Under the pieces are notes generated by a model that searched no databases, had not been told where the DNA came from, and saw only the letters and a program-made list of their open reading frames with translations. A DNA stretch of 64,000 nucleotides from Bacteroidota bacterium (GTDB lineage Bacteria; Bacteroidota; Bacteroidia; NS11-12g; UBA955): positions 1 through 64,000 of the forward strand of contig JAQCBH010000006.1 in the NCBI GenBank assembly GCA_027621365.1, read 5' to 3'. Made by a program: the position numbers and the translations under genes. Of this stretch, positions 26,891 to 36,243 are shown in pieces (the first letter of the stretch is position 1; each line of letters opens with the position of its first letter).

Positions 26891-27885
26891 TGGCGAGAAA
26901 TTATCGCTCATACAACCACCATCGCAAATCTGAAACTATTGATGATCAGTCCGTTCCAGTTTTGGAAAAGGTCAAAGCGGTTCGTACGGATCACCCATTC
27001 CTGTCTTATTTGAAGTCAAAGACATTCAAAGGATTTGAGGGGCACAGTTTGTACGATGTCGGACGCTATTTCTTGCGGGCCATGTTCACGGAAAACTTGA
27101 ATATGAGGGCCTCAGCACTGAGTTTCAATTTTTTCTTGGCCTTATTCCCGGCCTTGATTTTCACCTTGACCTTGATTGCCTACTTGCCTTTTGACGATTT
27201 GAAAACCCAATTTGTTCAAGAACTTTCTCGCATTTTGCCCGAAAAGTCGTTCAAAGAGGTTTCTGGAACCGTCCAAGAAGTGCTTTTGAAGCAGAATCGA
27301 GGCCTCTTGTCGTTTGGTTTTGCGTTGACCCTGTACTTTGCTTCTAATGCTTTTCATATACTCATCAATAACTTCAATAGACGATTGCCAGTAGTGGTCA
27401 AAAAGAACTGGTTTCAGTTGCGATTGAAAGCGCTGTTCATGACCGTTTTGATTTCTTCCATGGTTATTGTTGTCTTGGTATTGATCACCTGGGGCTACCA
27501 ATTGCATCGTTACATGGTCACCGAACAATGGAGAATTGGGTTTATTTATGAGTTCATCCTGGTCATTTTTGAATACCTGCTGATCGCTTTTCTGATCTTT
27601 TTGGCTATATCCAGTGTTTACTACTTTGGGCCGCATCATCAATGGCGTTGGAAGTTCTTCTCAGCCGGCAGTATACTAGCCTCTTCCCTTTCCATATTGT
27701 CCAGTTTGGTCTTTAGTTTTTACGTCAACAACTTTGACAGCTACAACAAGATTTACGGATCTATCGGAGCTATCATTGCTCTGTTGATATTGATTTATAT
27801 CAACGTATTGGCCGTAATTGTGGGATTTGAACTGAATACCAGCATCGAAAAAGTTGGGCTCTTTCCCCAATCGCAGGAGGATTAG
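26890..27885 (+). CDS. YihY/virulence factor BrkB family membrane protein
   Basis: 331 residues. Seen: a basic cytoplasmic N-terminus of ~65 residues, then six hydrophobic segments (~80-105, ~140-160, ~185-210, ~215-240, ~250-275, ~285-315). The family core is NMRASALSFNFFLALFPALIF and the end is YGSIGAIIALLILIYINVLAVIVGFELN. Known: YihY proteins are inner-membrane proteins of uncertain function, long misnamed RNase BN. It is the last gene of the DUF349 operon and overlaps the convergent DUF721 gene by four bases (TTAG). Confidence 0.93.
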   Translation: MARNYRSYNHHRKSETIDDQSVPVLEKVKAVRTDHPFLSYLKSKTFKGFEGHSLYDVGRYFLRAMFTENLNMRASALSFNFFLALFPALIFTLTLIAYLPFDDLKTQFVQELSRILPEKSFKEVSGTVQEVLLKQNRGLLSFGFALTLYFASNAFHILINNFNRRLPVVVKKNWFQLRLKALFMTVLISSMVIVVLVLITWGYQLHRYMVTEQWRIGFIYEFILVIFEYLLIAFLIFLAISSVYYFGPHHQWRWKFFSAGSILASSLSILSSLVFSFYVNNFDSYNKIYGSIGAIIALLILIYINVLAVIVGFELNTSIEKVGLFPQSQED

Positions 27886-28172
27886 TGTCCTACAAATATT
27901 TTCTCTATGGCCTGTTCTTGGAGGTGTAGGTTGCAATTCTGCATGATTTGTTCTCGTTGGTAGAACAGCTCGTTTTTCAAAACAGGATTGGAAACATGGA
28001 TGTACAAGGTCTTGCCTTTGAGTTCCAATTTGTCGGTGTGTTTGGCAATCAAGGGACCCACTATTTCTGACCACTGTTGGATCAGTTTGGCCTCCGTGAG
28101 TTTGCTATTGAGCCTGTAGCGCTCAAACATACGGTCCAAGACTTGGGATATATTCTTTTCTTCGTTAGACAT
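27882..28172 (-). CDS. DUF721 protein (DciA-like)
   Basis: 96 residues from the ATG at 28172, which overlaps the permease stop by eight bases; an upstream in-frame start is unconserved. Seen: the DUF721 pattern ISQVLDRMFERYRLNSKLTEAKLIQQWSEIVGPLIAKHTDKLEL, with the conserved W(S/E)xIVGP and the strand pair GKTLYIHVSNPVLKNEL. Known: DUF721 includes DciA, a loader of the replicative helicase in bacteria lacking DnaC; short Bacteroidetes members align with its KH-like domain. Coexpression with an amino acid permease looks incidental. Confidence 0.88.
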   Translation of the reverse strand: MSNEEKNISQVLDRMFERYRLNSKLTEAKLIQQWSEIVGPLIAKHTDKLELKGKTLYIHVSNPVLKNELFYQREQIMQNCNLHLQEQAIEKIFVGH

Positions 28173-29925
28173 CGCGGAGTTGGCTATTTCTGTATCCGTA
28201 GGCAAAGTAAATGACCAATCCGATGCCAAACCAAAGGAAAAACCACTGCCAATTGGAAGCTTCCATGCCCGTCAATAGGTAGGCGCAAAAACCTAGCCCC
28301 ATCATAGGAATAAAAGAGGTGTTTTTCCATAAAGCTATGACCGTTAACAAGGGTAAAAAGACAAACCAATACAACTGATGCGACAACCAACTGGTTTGGG
28401 GGTCATGCAGATCAGGCGCGCATCCCGCGTGTTTGACAATCTGAGGAGAATCATAGGCAAATCTCAAGTGGTCAAAGAATTCTGGCCATTGGTTCTGCAA
28501 GCCCCAAACGGTTAATGCTGCCAACAAGGGGAAGATCCAACGCGAAGGCCAATGGGGCAAATGAAACTTGCCCTCCGAAACCTCTCGTTTGGGCAGCAGC
28601 AATACCCCGCCACAGACCAAAACAAATGCAAACAAGGTACCGATGCTCGTAAAGTCCAAGACGAAGGAATCATTGACAAAAAAGATGGGCACACCTACCA
28701 GCAAACCGGTCATGATCGTGGAAAAGGAAGGGGTTTTGAATTTGGGATGGACCTTAGAAAAAGCCTTTGGGAGCAGGCCGTCTCGACTCATGGACATCCA
28801 GATTCTGGGCTGCCCCATCTGAAAGACCAGCAAAACGCTAGTCATGGCCACTACGGCTGAAATCGAAACCAAAAACTCCATCCAGCGAATGCCTTTTGAG
28901 GAAAAAGCTAGGGCTAAGGGGTCGGCTACCCCCAATTGGGTGTAGGGTACCATTCCCGTCAGAACCAACGAAATCAAGATGTACAATACCGTGCAAATGG
29001 CCAGAGCCCAGAACATGCCCAATGGTAGATTTCTCTGCGGATGTTCGGTCTCTTCAGCCAATGTAGAAATGGCATCAAATCCGATGTAGGTAAAGAAAAC
29101 TGCTGATATGCCGGCTAAAACTCCACCAAAGCCTTTAGGCATAAAGGGTTTGAAATTTTCAGCATCGACATAGAATGCCCCAACGACTATCACTAGCAAA
29201 ACAACCGCCAATTTGATGATAACCATGGCATTGCTGCTGTTTCGGGATTCCTTGACTCCCCTATACACCAGGGCTGTAATGATCAAGTTGATCGCAAAGG
29301 CAGGGATGTCTGCTATGAATCGAATGCCCCCAATAATGGGTGCTTGATGCCAAGCTTCCCAGGCCGTGACTTGGTCTTGATTCATGTTCTGGCCAACCCA
29401 ATCACTGGTGTTCGCTAGTTCGGTTATTCTCACTCCTTGGGCGGCCATAGCGGTAGCCACCTCTTCTACGCTTTCCAAAGCGCTTCGGTAATCCGTGATG
29501 AGGTAACGTGGTAGATCCCATCCGATGGCATCCAGAATGTGGGTAAAATACCCCGACCAGGCAAAGGAAACATAAATGTTCCCAATGGCGTATTCCATGA
29601 TCAAGGCCCAACCAATGATCCAAGCAAACAATTCCCCAAAGGAAGCGTAGGCGTATGTGTAAGCACTGCCAGAGGTCGGAATTCTCGCAGCAAATTCAGC
29701 GTAGCACAGGGCGGCAAGCGCACAGGCCACCCCGCAAATGATGAACAACCAAATCACGGCAGGACCGGCTGAAGCGCAGGCCTCGCCAATGCTGGAAAAA
29801 ATCCCGCCACCGATGATGGCTGCGATTCCAAAAAACACCAAATCTTTGAGTTTTAACACTCTTTGCAGTCCAGTTGCGTCTGCATGACTAAAATCAGTTT
29901 TTCGTTGGAAGAGGCGTTTCAACAT
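28165..29925 (-). CDS. Amino acid permease, APC superfamily (cationic amino acid transporter type)
   Basis: 586 residues with about 12-14 transmembrane helices. Seen: the APC signature near the N-terminus (FFGIAAIIGGGIFSSIGEA, helix 1 break), PTSGSAYTYAYASFGELFAW, FFTYIGFDAISTLAEETEHPQRNLP (helix 8) and QPRIWMSMSRDGLLPKAFSKVHPKFKTP. A ~60-residue insertion with charged loop lies near residues 150-210 and a long loop near 465-510. Known: such carriers import amino acids; specificity is not readable. It starts 59 bp from the divergent heavy-metal operon. Confidence 0.92.
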   Translation of the reverse strand: MLKRLFQRKTDFSHADATGLQRVLKLKDLVFFGIAAIIGGGIFSSIGEACASAGPAVIWLFIICGVACALAALCYAEFAARIPTSGSAYTYAYASFGELFAWIIGWALIMEYAIGNIYVSFAWSGYFTHILDAIGWDLPRYLITDYRSALESVEEVATAMAAQGVRITELANTSDWVGQNMNQDQVTAWEAWHQAPIIGGIRFIADIPAFAINLIITALVYRGVKESRNSSNAMVIIKLAVVLLVIVVGAFYVDAENFKPFMPKGFGGVLAGISAVFFTYIGFDAISTLAEETEHPQRNLPLGMFWALAICTVLYILISLVLTGMVPYTQLGVADPLALAFSSKGIRWMEFLVSISAVVAMTSVLLVFQMGQPRIWMSMSRDGLLPKAFSKVHPKFKTPSFSTIMTGLLVGVPIFFVNDSFVLDFTSIGTLFAFVLVCGGVLLLPKREVSEGKFHLPHWPSRWIFPLLAALTVWGLQNQWPEFFDHLRFAYDSPQIVKHAGCAPDLHDPQTSWLSHQLYWFVFLPLLTVIALWKNTSFIPMMGLGFCAYLLTGMEASNWQWFFLWFGIGLVIYFAYGYRNSQLRDV

Positions 29926-29949: not shown

Positions 29950-29979
29950 TTTGCATTGGCATTATTTTTGTTATTTTTG
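29950..29979 (+). promoter_or_regulatory. Promoter of the HYC_CC_PP-HMA-TonB receptor operon
   Basis: TTTG at 29950-29953, an 18-base spacer and TATTTTTG at 29972-29979, five bases before the ATG. A second copy of TATTTTTG lies directly before it (29963-29970), so two overlapping -7 boxes are possible. This matches the Bacteroidetes sigma consensus well. Confidence 0.65.
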
Positions 29980-29984
29980 ACCTC

Positions 29985-30380
29985 ATGAATGGGCCTCGAG
30001 TTTCGGCTTGGATCTTAATGGCGGTGGTTGCATTGAGTAGCGGTCCTGTTCAGGCCTTTGTACACGTTTGCTCCAATCAAGGCTCCCAGTGGAGTGAATC
30101 ATCCTGTTCGACCGAGTACCATACTAAGCCCTCCTGCTGTTCCCAAAAAGCATCGGTTCAGCCCAAATCTTGTTGTGAGTCGGTTTATTTGTTTGGACTT
30201 TCTGCCAAATTTAAAGATCGTTTACCCCAACAGGATTTCAATAAAATATTTGCTTTGTGGCTTGGGAAAGTGCAGGAGAATCTAGCAGTGAAAAGAGAAT
30301 GGGAACACGGTAAATCAACCATCAAAGTTCCATTTCCACCTCCTGATGTGCGTTTACTCATTCAGCGCATCAATCAATAG
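29985..30380 (+). CDS. Small secreted Cys-rich protein, HYC_CC_PP-like
   Basis: 131 residues. Seen: signal peptide (~1-24, VSAWILMAVVALSSGPVQA), then FVHVCSNQG (His27-Val-Cys29), Cys41, two Cys-Cys pairs (51-52 and 63-64) and a proline run PFPPPDVRLL near the C-terminus. This order fits the Bacteroidetes family named for HYC, CC and PP motifs, with Val in place of Tyr. Known: the family occurs beside HMA-domain proteins and TonB receptors; its biochemical role has not been described to my knowledge. Periplasmic metal binding by the Cys pairs is inference. Confidence 0.75.
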   Translation: MNGPRVSAWILMAVVALSSGPVQAFVHVCSNQGSQWSESSCSTEYHTKPSCCSQKASVQPKSCCESVYLFGLSAKFKDRLPQQDFNKIFALWLGKVQENLAVKREWEHGKSTIKVPFPPPDVRLLIQRINQ

Positions 30381-30399
30381 GTCTTGAATCGTTTGAAGG

Positions 30400-30431
30400 T
30401 TCGCTGCCGCAGCGAGCGAAGTACAGCGGCA
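30400..30431 (+). other. GC-rich alternative hairpins between the Cys-rich gene and the HMA gene
   Basis: Three mutually exclusive stems can form: TTCGCT/AGCGAA (30400-30405 with 30415-30420), CGCTG/CAGCG (30402-30414) and TGCCGC/GCGGCA (30405-30410 with 30426-30431). They fill the 72-base gap between two operon genes. An mRNA processing or attenuation role is possible but not shown. Confidence 0.3.
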
Positions 30432-30452
30432 ACTCCAAAAACAATCAAGATA

Positions 30453-30830
30453 ATGAAAACAACTTCTATCCTTAAAGCAGGATTTGCCATGTTGGCGATG
30501 CTGCTCGTGTTTGCCCTCGTGGAGGCTCAAACACCAAAATCGAATAAAACGACCATTCAATTTGTCGTCAAAGGCAATTGTGGAATGTGCAAAGAGCGAA
30601 TCGAAGCCGCTTTGGACAAACCCGGTATCTACAAGGCCATTTACACGCCTTCAACCCAAATGGTGGTTGTTACCTACAACCCTACTAAGGTTCAAATCAA
30701 CCAGCTGCACAACTTGGTCGCGATGGTAGGCCATGATACTCAGTTGGTCACGGCCTCCAATGTGGTGTATGCCAATTTGCCCCGTTGTTGCCAATACAGA
30801 GACGGATCATGCGAGGACGACGATTTTTAA
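30453..30830 (+). CDS. Secreted heavy-metal-associated (HMA) domain protein
   Basis: 125 residues from the ATG at 30453. The frame is open earlier, but the upstream part runs through the hairpins and lacks a signal peptide. Seen: signal peptide (~1-25, ending LVEAQ), then an HMA ferredoxin-like fold with the metal-binding loop GNCGMCKERIEAAL (Cys43, Cys46) and MVVVTYNPTKVQINQLHNLVAMVGHDT. The tail adds Cys112-Cys113 and Cys120 in RCCQYRDGSC. Known: HMA domains bind Cu(I), Zn, Cd or Hg through CxxC. It overlaps the TonB receptor by 22 bp, so the two are tightly coupled. Confidence 0.9.
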   Translation: MKTTSILKAGFAMLAMLLVFALVEAQTPKSNKTTIQFVVKGNCGMCKERIEAALDKPGIYKAIYTPSTQMVVVTYNPTKVQINQLHNLVAMVGHDTQLVTASNVVYANLPRCCQYRDGSCEDDDF

Positions 30831-32866
30831 TCGGTCTGATTTCGCTTCATTCGCCCCTGCTTTATTCTCAAATTCAACCGGCCGATACCTCGAGCATTCC
30901 TGAGGTGGAGATCAGACGGCAATCTTCGGGTCATCGTTGGAATACACAAGGTATTCGCCTAGGAGAACAATTGACTCAAGGAGAATTTAAGAGGGCGGCC
31001 TGTTGTACGCTTAGTGAAAGCTTTGAGCTAAACAATACCGTCGAGGTATCGAATGCCGATGGCGTAAGTGGAATCAAACAAGTAGAAATGCTGGGCTTGG
31101 CTGGCAAGTATGTCAACATGAGTCGAGACAACATTCCTTTGATTCAAGGGTTGAATTTGCTCAATGGATTGAGTGCTATACCAGGCCCCATGGTATCCAA
31201 TGTTCACATCAACAAGGGCACCTCTTCTGTGACTCTGGGCCATGATGGATTAACGGGCGCTTTGAATTATGCCTTGGCGGCTGATCCGATGGGCCCGCGT
31301 TTGTTCCTCAACGCATTTCAAAACTCCCAAATGAGGCAAGAGTACAACGCCATAGCCAAAGCGCAAATCAACGCTCGCACCTTTAATCACACCTACGCCA
31401 ACAGCGCAGGTCAAGCCGGTATAACCGATCGTAACGAAGATGGATTTTCGGACATGCCCCTTTCCAATCGATGGTTATTGGGCAATCACAGTCAATTCTA
31501 TGGAGATAAATTCGAAAGCCAATGGGGTTTTACGGCTTGGAAAGAAGACAAGCAAGCCGGAGTATTAGACGCTAGCCTTGGTGAGCTTTCCCAGAACCCT
31601 AACGATTTTCGATTTGAGTCTCAAGAACAACGCTTAGAGGCCTACGGCAAATTGGGCGTCTTTTTGAACGAAGACGGAAGCAGCAGTTGGGGAAATATCC
31701 TGACGTACAGCCAGCACCAAAACTCTTCGGTGTTGAATTCTTTGATTGGAAGAAACTACGAAGGCAAAGAACAAAGGTTCGAATACCAGTCTTTTTACCA
31801 ATCGGCAGAGTTTAACGAATTGTTCAATGTGAAGGCCGGTGTTCAATTCTCTTATGATCAAGCCAATGAAAGCCTGCGAAGTCGTCTATTCAACACTCCT
31901 TCTTCTCCTATGGCTTTGGCCGATCAATTGGATGTTCAAAGACGGGAGCGAAACTCTGCTGCATTCGCGGAACTGGTCAAGGAAGGCGATTTGTCTTATG
32001 TATTGGGCCTGCGTGTTGATCGCAACAGCTTGTTTGGAACCTTTGTCAGCCCTCGATTCAATGTCAAATGGGAACCCAAGCCCAACCACAAGCTTTATGC
32101 CTCAGGAGGTTTGGGTCGTCGAAGCCCATGGGCCCTGATTGAGTATTTTCCTTTGATGACCGCTTCTAGGCAAATAACCTGGGCTGGATCGGCCCCAACT
32201 CCATACGGATTGGAACAGGAAAAGGCCATGAATGGGGGTTTGTCGTATATCGGCAATTTCACTGCCTTTGGATTCCCCAGTACGTGGACGGTTGATGCCT
32301 TTTTAACGCAATTCCTGGTGCAGACCGTCTTAGACCGAGATCAACAAGCAGAAGCCTTGGTTATTCAATCTCTATCAGGCGATCAAGCAGGTCATACAAG
32401 ATCCTTGCATGTGGAATGGTCGGGCTATTTGCACCGAAGATTGAGCTTCAAATGGGCTTATCGATTCGTTGATAATCAGGTTTGGCTGGGCGACGAAGAG
32501 GGCAATTTTGGTTTTATGCAATCGCCTTTTCAAGCTCGTCACAGAGGTTTGATGGTTTGGGGGTACGAAACTCGCACCGATTGGTTTTTTGATGCTACGG
32601 CTCAATTCAATGGACAGAAACGGCTACCCAATTCGGCATATTGGAACGAAAGTTCGATGAGCCAAGCCTATGCCATTTGGAACGCGCAAGTTCGCAAAAC
32701 CTGGAAGGGCTTGGATGTTTACCTAGGTATGGAAAACATTGGTAATCAGATGGCTCCATCTGCCATTCGCAGCTTGGTCAATACGAATTTTGTTGATCCC
32801 ACCTTTGCCTGGGGGCCTACCAATGGTCGAATGTTGTATGCGGGGCTGCGTTACACCTTGCCGTAA
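30809..32866 (+). CDS. TonB-dependent receptor with Cys-Cys plug motif, metal-associated type
   Basis: 685 residues from the ATG at 30809, inside the HMA gene end. Seen: signal peptide (~1-21), a plug domain with FKRAACCTLSESFELN (Cys65-Cys66) and GIKQVEMLGLAGKYVNMSRD, then a 22-strand-type barrel ending YAGLRYTLP. The N-terminal carboxypeptidase-like beta domain found in many relatives is missing. Known: this ACC(N/T)LSESFE plug variant is recurrent in Bacteroidetes receptors next to HMA proteins. Metal or metallophore transport across the outer membrane is inference from motif and context. Its 3' end overlaps the convergent DUF2520 gene by 16 bp. Confidence 0.9.
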   Translation: MRGRRFLIGLISLHSPLLYSQIQPADTSSIPEVEIRRQSSGHRWNTQGIRLGEQLTQGEFKRAACCTLSESFELNNTVEVSNADGVSGIKQVEMLGLAGKYVNMSRDNIPLIQGLNLLNGLSAIPGPMVSNVHINKGTSSVTLGHDGLTGALNYALAADPMGPRLFLNAFQNSQMRQEYNAIAKAQINARTFNHTYANSAGQAGITDRNEDGFSDMPLSNRWLLGNHSQFYGDKFESQWGFTAWKEDKQAGVLDASLGELSQNPNDFRFESQEQRLEAYGKLGVFLNEDGSSSWGNILTYSQHQNSSVLNSLIGRNYEGKEQRFEYQSFYQSAEFNELFNVKAGVQFSYDQANESLRSRLFNTPSSPMALADQLDVQRRERNSAAFAELVKEGDLSYVLGLRVDRNSLFGTFVSPRFNVKWEPKPNHKLYASGGLGRRSPWALIEYFPLMTASRQITWAGSAPTPYGLEQEKAMNGGLSYIGNFTAFGFPSTWTVDAFLTQFLVQTVLDRDQQAEALVIQSLSGDQAGHTRSLHVEWSGYLHRRLSFKWAYRFVDNQVWLGDEEGNFGFMQSPFQARHRGLMVWGYETRTDWFFDATAQFNGQKRLPNSAYWNESSMSQAYAIWNAQVRKTWKGLDVYLGMENIGNQMAPSAIRSLVNTNFVDPTFAWGPTNGRMLYAGLRYTLP

Positions 32867-33588
32867 CGTTGGCGAATGAATTGGCTTAATTGCCGATACA
32901 ATTCTTGAACGGCGGCATCGCTTTGCATGAGCTCCAAGTGGTCGTACAGGGTTTGTTCGTCTCCGCGCCTGGCTGGGCCGGTTTGTGCTTGTTCACCGGG
33001 TAAGGCCAGCGCTTTGCTCAGGGTTTCATCCAATAGAGGCTTCAAAAGTTCAGGATCAAGTTGATGATCGCGGCAAATCTCAGCGGCCATCCCCATGACC
33101 GTTTGTCCAAAATTATTGGCCCATACAGCAGCCAAATGAAGGGATCTGCGCTGTTGACTATCAATAGTTTGAGTATTCAAACCTAAATTCTTACTCCATG
33201 CAAGGAGTTCAGTGGAATCTGATTCAATGAGTACAGGAATGGAGTCCCAATCAGGGTTTCTACCCAAACTGAAGCTCTGCAAGGGGTACCAAACGGCCGT
33301 TGAAAAGCGATTGGATGCAAAACGCTCGCAATTCCCACTGCATTGAATAAAAAGAGAATTACTAGGTGAGCGCTGTTCCAATTGCAAGCCGATTTGATCG
33401 TCAGGTATGGCTAAAAACACCAAGGGAGACATAGTCTCATCGCTTAGCCATTGATCACGTGAGGCAAACCCCTCTCCTGTCTTAGACTGACTGTAGATGC
33501 ATCGAATGTTGACGCCCTTACTTTCAAAGAGACGATGTAAGGCTTGACCCAATCGGCCGTATCCTACAATGTCTACCGCATCTATCAT
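32851..33588 (-). CDS. Rossmann-like and DUF2520 domain protein
   Basis: 245 residues. Seen: dinucleotide-binding start VDIVGYGRLGQALHRLFES (GxGxxG, ~6-24), LVFLAIPDDQI (~55-66), and a helical DUF2520 half with SLHLAAVWANNFGQTVMGMA and LLKPLLDETL. Known: the fold resembles ProC/ketopantoate reductase and 6-phosphogluconate-dehydrogenase-like oxidoreductases; the substrate of DUF2520 proteins is not established. It is the last gene of the PRODH-ccm operon, nine bases after ccmF. Similarity to pyrroline-5-carboxylate reductase and the proline dehydrogenase in the same operon is suggestive only. Confidence 0.9.
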   Translation of the reverse strand: MIDAVDIVGYGRLGQALHRLFESKGVNIRCIYSQSKTGEGFASRDQWLSDETMSPLVFLAIPDDQIGLQLEQRSPSNSLFIQCSGNCERFASNRFSTAVWYPLQSFSLGRNPDWDSIPVLIESDSTELLAWSKNLGLNTQTIDSQQRRSLHLAAVWANNFGQTVMGMAAEICRDHQLDPELLKPLLDETLSKALALPGEQAQTGPARRGDEQTLYDHLELMQSDAAVQELYRQLSQFIRQRYGKV

Positions 33589-33597
33589 GAGGCTAAT

Positions 33598-36243
33598 TTA
33601 CGCCAAAAGCTCTCGTTGTTCCTTCAGACGACGCGCGATGGTCATGGCGAATCCTAAGACCATGAGTACGGTTCCTGCCCATACCGAATTGATCCAGGGG
33701 AACTCAATTGACTTCACAACCACATAAGGGATAACGGGTTTTTTCTCGCCGGTCTGAATCACGAATTCCAAATTTTCCGCTTTGGGATTGGGATCCAAGA
33801 TTTTCATGTGCTGAATGCTGACATACAATCCCAGCTCATCTGATTCAACGGGTGCTGATTCAAAGGCTCCAGAAGCGGTATTGATTTTAAACTGCGGATA
33901 AACGTATCGGTATGCTTCGGTTGGAGATTCCGAAAACCCAATGTTGCTGCAGGCCATTTTAAGCTGAACTACTAGACCTTCTGCTGTGGGGTAGCTGCTG
34001 AAACTGTCCAATCTCAGGGCCAACTTGGCTGAAGAGGTCGTGAAGGTCTCTCCCATTCGCAACGTGTCTTGCTTGAATCCAGCAAAGGGCTCAGGCTTAT
34101 CCATACTGCTTTGATAACTCACGTGGGTGAAAATGTCTTTGCTCAAAAAGTGTCTTGTATCGGGCTCGGCCAACAATCCCATTTTGGGGTTGTTCTGGGT
34201 CTTCGGCTGCAACTGAAAACTATCTCCGGTTAGGGTATCGACAAAATTCAAGAGAAAATACTCGTTGATGCTGTCAAAGCCGGTCCCTTTTCGTTGACCC
34301 ATATAGGTAACGCCATAATTAGAAGCCTGTCCTTGACGGTCTTTGTATAAAATCGCGTTTTCACGATTGAACTCTATACCTTTTGCATCCATTTGGCCAT
34401 TGGCGTCCATTTCTGGGGCCAAGCCAATACCGGCACTTTGGGTAATGATGCGCTGATTGACCGAAGAGATCAAGACACCTAACAACAAAACACCAAAGCC
34501 AATGTGGGCCACACTAGAACCGTGATTCAACCATGATTTCTTCTTCTTTTCAAGGGCATACCAAGCATTGGCCGAAATCAAATAAACCGAGGCAAACAGG
34601 AAGAGCAAATAGCCCAAATTGTAAATATCCAGGGCCCAAGCCAACAGAACCGAAAGACTGAGTGACAACCCTACTGTTTTGAGAAGACCTTTGACCCAAA
34701 CTTCTAGAGGCGTTTCTCTAAATCGGAACCAGTGCCCCATGGCCATTAACACCATGATGGGCATGGCTAGCCACAATTGAACACGGTTGTAATCGGCTTC
34801 TTGAGGAACGGCGGTTTTGAAACCAAACAGTTTGTTGAAAACGGGAATGGAAGTGGCGAAGAACACTTGAACCAGACTCAATATCAAAAACATAGAGCCC
34901 AAGAACATCCAAAATTCTCGGCTACTCACTTTGTCCTCAGTAGCTACATCTTCTTTGGTCTCTTTCAATAGGGCCTGAATGAATCCCACCAAGGTCCCGG
35001 CAAATAAGACTATGCCCGCCCATTTGATGATGGAGGTAAAATGGGCTTCCCATGAATCGGGAATGGCCATACTCACTAAGGGTATCAAAACCAAAACGGC
35101 CACTAAGGCGTAGGCAATGGTAGATCGAAGAGTTTTTGACTGTACGGCGGCCCAATAGGAAAGTCCAATAAAGGCCAACAAGAAGAGCAACAATTGGCCC
35201 GACAATCCCAAATCGGTGAAACTGTGCACGGAAGCCTCTCCTAGTATACCACTTCGGGTCAAAAAGGTAGCGTACAGCACCAACCAGAAACTCAATTGAA
35301 TCAGCAAATGTGCCGAAAACAAATGCCTACCGGTGCTCTTGGCAATCAAAAGCATATGAGCGGCAGCGGCCATGAGCAACCAGGGCATCAAAGAAGCATT
35401 TTCTACGGGATCCCAAGCCCAGTATCCGCCGAAATTCAGGCTTTCATACGCCCAATATCCACCCATGATGATGCCCAAGCCCAAAATGCCCACACAGACC
35501 AAGCTCCAGATCAATGCCGGGCGAATCCAGGAGCGATTTTGACCCCCTTTCCACAAGGCGGACACGCTGTAAGCAAAGGGAACAACGGCTGTTGCAAATC
35601 CAAAAAACAAGGTGGGTGGATGAATGACCATCCAATAGTTCTGAAGCAAAGGATTCAAGCCATTTCCATCGGTAATGACCTGCAAATAGTTGCCTATGCC
35701 AATGCTCCCCAAAATGGGTATCTGCAGAAAATCAGGACGTTCTACGCGCAAAAGTTCAAAAGGACTGCTTCCCAAATGGAAACTACCCCATTCAATGCCC
35801 AGCAACATGGAGCTCAAGGCTACCTGGGCAAAAGCCATGATGGCCATGACGGGGGCTTTTAAATCCGTTTGTTTGCGGAGCAACGCCAAACCGATGGCTG
35901 CGTTCCAGAACATCCAGAGCAAGAAACTTCCCTCTTGACCTTCCCAAAAACAGGAAATCATGTAATGGGTGGGCAAGGCCAAAGAACTGTGCCTCCAGAC
36001 GTAGTAGTATTCAAATCGGTGAAAGAATATCAGGAAGAAGAGTACGGCAACAATGCTCAATACCCCAAAGCTGTGGGCCAAAAAGAAACGCTTTCCCCAA
36101 TCGTAGTAGCTGCTCGTTCCCTCTTTGCTCGCCTGGAAAAAGGCGAAAACCGCCAATAAGGCGGTGGCAAATGTCAATATAACGGCGGCGTGACCTAGGT
36201 TTCCCAACCAAAGCCACTCACCTGCAAATTCAATGCTTTTCAT
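33598..36243 (-). CDS. ccmF: Cytochrome c-type biogenesis protein CcmF (heme lyase, CcsA/CcmF family)
   Basis: 881 residues with about 14-15 transmembrane helices. Seen: the WWD-type heme-handling segment GGYWAWDPVENASLMPWLL (~276-294), MVIHPPTLFFGFA before it, and a large periplasmic domain (~600-840) before the last helix. Known: CcmF ligates heme to apocytochrome c at CxxCH. It is longer than the E. coli protein (647), mostly through the C-terminal periplasmic domain, as in other Bacteroidetes. It begins three bases after ccmE ends. Confidence 0.93.
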   Translation of the reverse strand: MKSIEFAGEWLWLGNLGHAAVILTFATALLAVFAFFQASKEGTSSYYDWGKRFFLAHSFGVLSIVAVLFFLIFFHRFEYYYVWRHSSLALPTHYMISCFWEGQEGSFLLWMFWNAAIGLALLRKQTDLKAPVMAIMAFAQVALSSMLLGIEWGSFHLGSSPFELLRVERPDFLQIPILGSIGIGNYLQVITDGNGLNPLLQNYWMVIHPPTLFFGFATAVVPFAYSVSALWKGGQNRSWIRPALIWSLVCVGILGLGIIMGGYWAYESLNFGGYWAWDPVENASLMPWLLMAAAAHMLLIAKSTGRHLFSAHLLIQLSFWLVLYATFLTRSGILGEASVHSFTDLGLSGQLLLFLLAFIGLSYWAAVQSKTLRSTIAYALVAVLVLIPLVSMAIPDSWEAHFTSIIKWAGIVLFAGTLVGFIQALLKETKEDVATEDKVSSREFWMFLGSMFLILSLVQVFFATSIPVFNKLFGFKTAVPQEADYNRVQLWLAMPIMVLMAMGHWFRFRETPLEVWVKGLLKTVGLSLSLSVLLAWALDIYNLGYLLFLFASVYLISANAWYALEKKKKSWLNHGSSVAHIGFGVLLLGVLISSVNQRIITQSAGIGLAPEMDANGQMDAKGIEFNRENAILYKDRQGQASNYGVTYMGQRKGTGFDSINEYFLLNFVDTLTGDSFQLQPKTQNNPKMGLLAEPDTRHFLSKDIFTHVSYQSSMDKPEPFAGFKQDTLRMGETFTTSSAKLALRLDSFSSYPTAEGLVVQLKMACSNIGFSESPTEAYRYVYPQFKINTASGAFESAPVESDELGLYVSIQHMKILDPNPKAENLEFVIQTGEKKPVIPYVVVKSIEFPWINSVWAGTVLMVLGFAMTIARRLKEQRELLA

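Follow-up and report, generated by a model that had tools for sequence, protein, structure and literature searches.

Little is known of how copper crosses the outer membrane of Gram-negative bacteria. Of the copper TonB receptors characterised in the literature that we searched, namely OprC/NosA, CrtA and the methanobactin receptor, none is from Bacteroidota. The copper ligands of OprC are C143 and M147 in the plug and H323 and M325 in the barrel, i.e. a CxxxM and an HxM motif, the plug cysteine being placed about 70 residues past the Ton box (PMC8610252). CrtA has an essential conserved His in its ligand site, and its orthologues, found mostly in beta/gamma-Proteobacteria, carry no conserved Cys or Met (PMC12914433). 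For the Cys-rich proteins of the HYC_CC_PP family (NF047658), no function is described in the literature searched.

Here we analyse a window, i.e. the whole stretch of 64,000 nucleotides, in which inspection of the open reading frames and the sequence gave three genes on the forward (+) strand at 29985-32866. Gene C (29985..30380, 131 aa) encodes an exported Cys-rich protein, a divergent HYC_CC_PP-like protein. Gene H (30453..30830, 125 aa) encodes a secreted HMA-domain protein with a CxxC motif and a C-terminal LPxCC tail, and gene R (30809..32866, 685 aa, ATG at 30809) a TonB-dependent outer-membrane receptor. The frames of H and R share 22 bp on the + strand (30809..30830), as the initial annotation had reported, and the two genes are likely translationally coupled through this overlap. 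Its statement that all partners are exported or outer-membrane proteins was likewise borne out. The module is real and conserved, and apparently undescribed. No account of it was found in the full-text literature searched, a coverage that leaves out most subscription journals, and it was not identified in papers on the ZntR regulon of R. anatipestifer or on zinc in P. gingivalis. A copper study of Bizionia lists a predicted OprC homologue and HMA proteins separately, and no description of the C-H-R module was found in it (PMC11213822).

The linkage of the three genes was evaluated on different genome sets. Searched genome-wide, 63 of 70 genomes from the same family gave a receptor match, and the order C-H-R was found in nearly all of the best 30 family loci, for which the upstream DNA was read, with minus-strand loci first turned to their reverse complement. 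Scanning 84,980 species, with one genome per species, gave 42 loci with H beside R in nearly all; the distant loci had the order C-R-H in Bernardetia and Cytophagales, and H-R in an Ignavibacteria genome. Additionally, a phylum sample of 297 evenly drawn genomes was used with a receptor cut-off of E<=1e-60. The receptor is carried by 77 of these genomes, and the family receptors are clearly separated from other TonB receptors, where the best non-family scores are 168-171 bits.

A total of 78 receptors were classified, with 15 having the order H-R, 31 the order R-H, 9 being fused and 23 without H. This means that H is adjacent or fused in 55/78, and that about 30% have no H next door. A small Cys-rich ORF is found upstream on the same strand for 69/78 receptors, and with a limit of 600 bp such an ORF precedes 65 of 75 receptors compared to 9 among 170 large non-receptor ORFs in the same loci. 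Adjacency beyond the lineage, on which the initial annotation had made its proposal depend, is thus phylum-wide. In the receptor tree, from which a few family rows mislabelled by the ORF filter were left out, the separate H/R gene orders show at least 7-11 changes on well supported branches, and the H-R fusion has at least two origins on supported branches. In the fusions, of which the one in L107 has 845 aa, the HMA domain or domains are N-terminal to the receptor, ahead of the plug. That linkage persists through rearrangement and fusion argues strongly for a joint function of the module.

R was assigned to the TonB-dependent receptors, a class with a plug domain and a 22-strand barrel. The match to the Plug domain (E=1e-4, 23.2 bits) is just below the cut-off of 23.9, and among 27 relatives the plug was matched in 23 and the barrel in 6. 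Foldseek matches to BtuB, FrpB, FepA and OprC were obtained at E<1e-17, and the barrel is a generic BtuB-like one. The only cysteines of R are C65 and C66, found in FKRAACCTLSESFE of the plug, and the plug cysteine pair noted by the initial annotation is a family trait: CC is present in 154/154 receptor ORFs of all loci and in 0/3 weaker TonB receptors. It is also present in 79/79 aligned receptors, where no other Cys column reaches 15%. In the AF2 model the barrel is good and the plug mostly has a pLDDT of about 30-50, and owing to this low confidence the position of CC relative to the periplasm was taken from the plug alignment only. By sequence, the family receptor profile had no solved relatives at E<=0.01. 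A broader receptor profile matches the TonB-linked receptor 9gbc, which is without CC; the pair aligns just before the plug segment NLSDAL of 9gbc and well before the region of the OprC plug ligands. This early part of TonB plugs lies toward the periplasmic side.

Like OprC/NosA, R is a TonB receptor, and it would share copper with them as a substrate; a plug Cys acting as key soft-metal ligand, which was shown for OprC, is proposed for R. Having neither CxxxM nor HxM, R was rejected as a receptor of the OprC/NosA type; its cysteines form a vicinal pair in the early plug, and its companions are HMA and Cys-rich proteins. CrtA is also a TonB receptor, and the feeding of haem-copper oxidases, shown for CrtA, is proposed for R. 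Judged by the published features of CrtA, an assignment of R to CrtA was rejected because CC is invariant in all aligned receptors. Furthermore, R is distributed in Bacteroidota and Ignavibacteria, as opposed to the mainly beta/gamma-proteobacterial CrtA.

H carries a signal peptide, the CxxC motif CGMC (C43, C46) and three further cysteines, C112, C113 and C120, in the tail LPRCCQYRDGSC, in agreement with the initial annotation. The match to the HMA domain PF00403 scores 26.7 bits against a cut-off of 24.8, and the AF2 model has a mean pLDDT of 86 and at least 94 across the HMA core. The solved folds nearest to the prediction are CopZ and MerP, with a TM-score (target) of 0.90 for CopZ. In sequence and fold, H comes closest for the most part to Cu(I) chaperones and ATPase domains; MerP and ZiaA are within range too. 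Both CxxCKxRI and the tail CC are invariant in family and distant alignments. The HMA fold with CxxC is common to H, MerP and CopZ, while CusF has an OB fold, not HMA; the periplasmic acceptor role proposed for H is like that of MerP and CusF. H differs from all three by a conserved C-terminal GHDT...LPxCC extension and by the partner of its family, either CusB or a TonB receptor of the outer membrane. Some family H proteins (L020, L023, L027, L028) have lipoprotein-like N termini, consistent with anchoring close to the receptor.

H was rejected as MerP (TIGR02052), with 25 bits where 92.55 are required and no mer genes recognised beside the module, and as MerTP, with 24.8 against 180 bits. 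We regard it as quite unlikely that a different metal of the soft or thiophilic kind (Ag, Hg, Zn, Cd) is served by the same architecture. Vicinal Cys and CxxC do bind many soft metals, and H also resembles the MerP and ZiaA domains, but the MerP and MerTP models are far below cut-off and the adjoining ATPases and oxidases are copper-type.

We consider it moderately probable that C-H-R is a module for TonB-dependent copper acquisition in which the plug CC pair would release the metal to the HMA protein as acceptor. TonB receptors import, and because the HMA domain precedes the plug in the fusions its place must be periplasmic and next to the plug. Together with the early position of CC in the plug, this leads us to propose metal exit via CC to H. 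Copper, ionic or weakly chelated, would be taken up by the receptor, and during TonB-driven remodelling of the plug the metal would pass through the vicinal C65-C66 early in the plug to the periplasmic HMA protein, a predicted lipoprotein in some relatives. H would hold the metal by CxxC and the LPxCC tail, and might deliver it to periplasmic users, e.g. a haem-copper oxidase or a copper-ATPase cycle. At the envelope, C would add a third ligand for soft metal, acting either as a buffer or as a loader of the receptor or the HMA protein.

We infer copper as the substrate, the import direction, the order of hand-off and the role of C. Import is the probable direction and the CC-to-HMA relay is plausible. 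Counting against import, the clearest contexts of the HMA-LPxCC family are those of copper efflux, not uptake. More tentatively, the module may represent a novel class of copper importer in the outer membrane, common across Bacteroidota: the plug CC would pass Cu(I) straight to an HMA metallochaperone that is either tethered to the receptor or co-expressed with it. If copper is imported, this would be an uptake route for a major phylum, gut Parabacteroides included, and if the hand-off is true, nature would here offer a model, at times within a single chain, for a TonB plug that transfers metal directly to a chaperone.

Copper is the best-supported and the likely metal of the module. Four loci encode a CusB adaptor that ends in an HMA-LPxCC domain, beside a CusA/CzcA-family pump; such CusB-type fusions are found at L110 5875-7458, L111 7717-9312, L112 4760-6397 and L113 7401-8981. 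There the copper/silver efflux adaptor would carry a chaperone domain of its own. The profile of H also finds relatives away from the receptor, and among such receptor-free HMA-LPxCC loci, CusA, CusB, a Cu-ATPase or a multicopper oxidase is present in 22/31. Of the 31, 11 belong to a first set in whose choice unusual frame lengths played a part, but such copper genes are likewise present in about half of the remaining twenty. Two receptor operons contain CopA, with all genes on one strand: the HYC protein, a CopZ-like protein, CopA, R and H in L201, and C, R, H and CopA in L212. Both ATPases have a CPC motif, with CopA and copper-translocating ATPase as best models. Within the three-gene cluster of the window neither a P-type ATPase nor a metal sensor was found, and the one copper-type ATPase of the window genome is on another contig. 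The absence of a P-type ATPase alongside the genes, as noted in the initial annotation, is therefore true in the window and does not extend to these two relatives. Its suggestion of a soft metal such as Cu(I) or Hg(II) is backed for copper by independent fusions and operons, while Hg(II) is without contextual support, no mercury context being found among the loci examined.

The same contexts bear on copper protection, in which H and C would be envelope copper traps and the receptor a sensor, scavenger or re-uptake route in detoxification. The fusion of the HMA-LPxCC family to CusB, its occurrence with CusA, multicopper oxidase and CopA resistance genes, and a plasmid copy of the receptor near CusA all speak for protection. 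We nevertheless find it unlikely, as TonB receptors are importers and the module usually stands without efflux genes, a P-type ATPase being present in 2/80 receptor loci; moreover, the window genome is without Cus and multicopper oxidase. That genome has one haem-copper oxidase, no CusA over cut-off and no multicopper oxidase, indicating copper demand without dedicated periplasmic efflux, for which supply fits better than resistance. COX1 is present in 282/297 phylum genomes, with a single receptor genome (G307) lacking it, and being nearly universal its co-occurrence with the receptor is uninformative.

A different function of the cysteines would be a redox or structural one, where CC is an element such as a gating disulfide, the receptor imports an unrelated cofactor and H and C are thiol partners. 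Such a role would suit the generic, BtuB-like barrel and the presence, at some loci, of thioredoxin/TlpA-like genes close to the module. These genes are present in just 8/80 loci, no redoxin is found within the window cluster, and the HMA fusions and CopA operons indicate metal, which makes this reading very improbable.

The third partner of the proposed copper acquisition module, C, has a signal peptide followed by FVHVC (H27-V-C29), two CC pairs (51-52, 63-64) and a PPP close to the C terminus, so that the features listed for it by the initial annotation are all present at 29985-30380. In the family alignment HxC...CC...C...PP is kept and little else is conserved. C resembles HYC_CC_PP in the HxC, CC, PP pattern and in its place upstream of the receptor, but the window member is too divergent to match the NF047658 model, which needs at least 28 bits, and Pfam gave nothing above noise. 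Some relatives in the same position do match: NF047658 is hit by 6/24 positional homologues (best E 1.6e-5), and a phylum homologue scores 44.4 bits, above cut-off. Profile-profile comparison of C with NF047658 gave 95%, over 31 N-terminal columns only. A working hypothesis for HYC_CC_PP proteins can be drawn from the module.

A strict match to the Bacteroidota-type promoter consensus TTTG-N18-TAttTTTG (TTTG-N18-TATTTTTG) is located at 29950..29979 on the + strand. The start codon of C, the first ATG of the cluster, is 5 bp past the end of this match, and the transcript is therefore likely leaderless or near-leaderless. The window has 3 strict matches compared to 1.5 by chance, and at least 3 occur in 18% of shuffles. 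Of the single consensus promoter described initially, the match directly before the first ATG stands, but with a count at chance level it rests on position, not rarity. As a sign of a shared regulon the consensus was rejected on this count and on strict matches upstream of the module in 5/37 relatives. Scans of the module for sigma-70 promoters and terminators were at chance level only, and no Rfam riboswitch was found upstream of or inside it. The 72-bp gap between C and H (30381-30452) is foldable (z -1.9 compared to shuffles) with an inverted repeat TCGCTG-CCG-CAGCGA, an element that might tune expression between C and H-R.

The neighbouring genes were named by reading of their sequences. 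Upstream, an amino-acid permease-like gene is on the opposite strand, and downstream, DUF2520-like and ccmF-like genes are convergent. Several family genomes have the module between the same neighbours as in the window (27882-29925 and 32851-36243), and finding ccmF, a gene of cytochrome c maturation, next to a putative copper module may reflect only shared ancestry. In other loci, TlpA/thioredoxin-like genes are found beside the module (L107 7076-7564, L108 4948-5427, L072 10431-11036), and these possibly keep Cys pairs reduced.

A copper-resistance cluster with a CopA-type ATPase and a multicopper oxidase holds HMA-LPxCC fused to DUF3347 (L113 15452-16300), and HMA proteins of similar size (274-319 aa) are found in the copper-resistance clusters of L114, L116-L119 and L235. 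On a Haliscomenobacter plasmid, an HMA-like protein and a receptor are about 4 kb from a CusA gene. The gut anaerobe Parabacteroides distasonis has C-R-H (L230 6155-9445), where the HMA protein has CxxC and the tail GCPVPP instead of LPxCC. C-R-H is also carried by a record listed as a plasmid of this species, with chromosomal-looking ftsK and smpB. The window genome has a second Cys-containing plug type, NCSICNTGD, in a TonB receptor on contig C19 (L224 6477-8549) that adjoins an XRE-type regulator.
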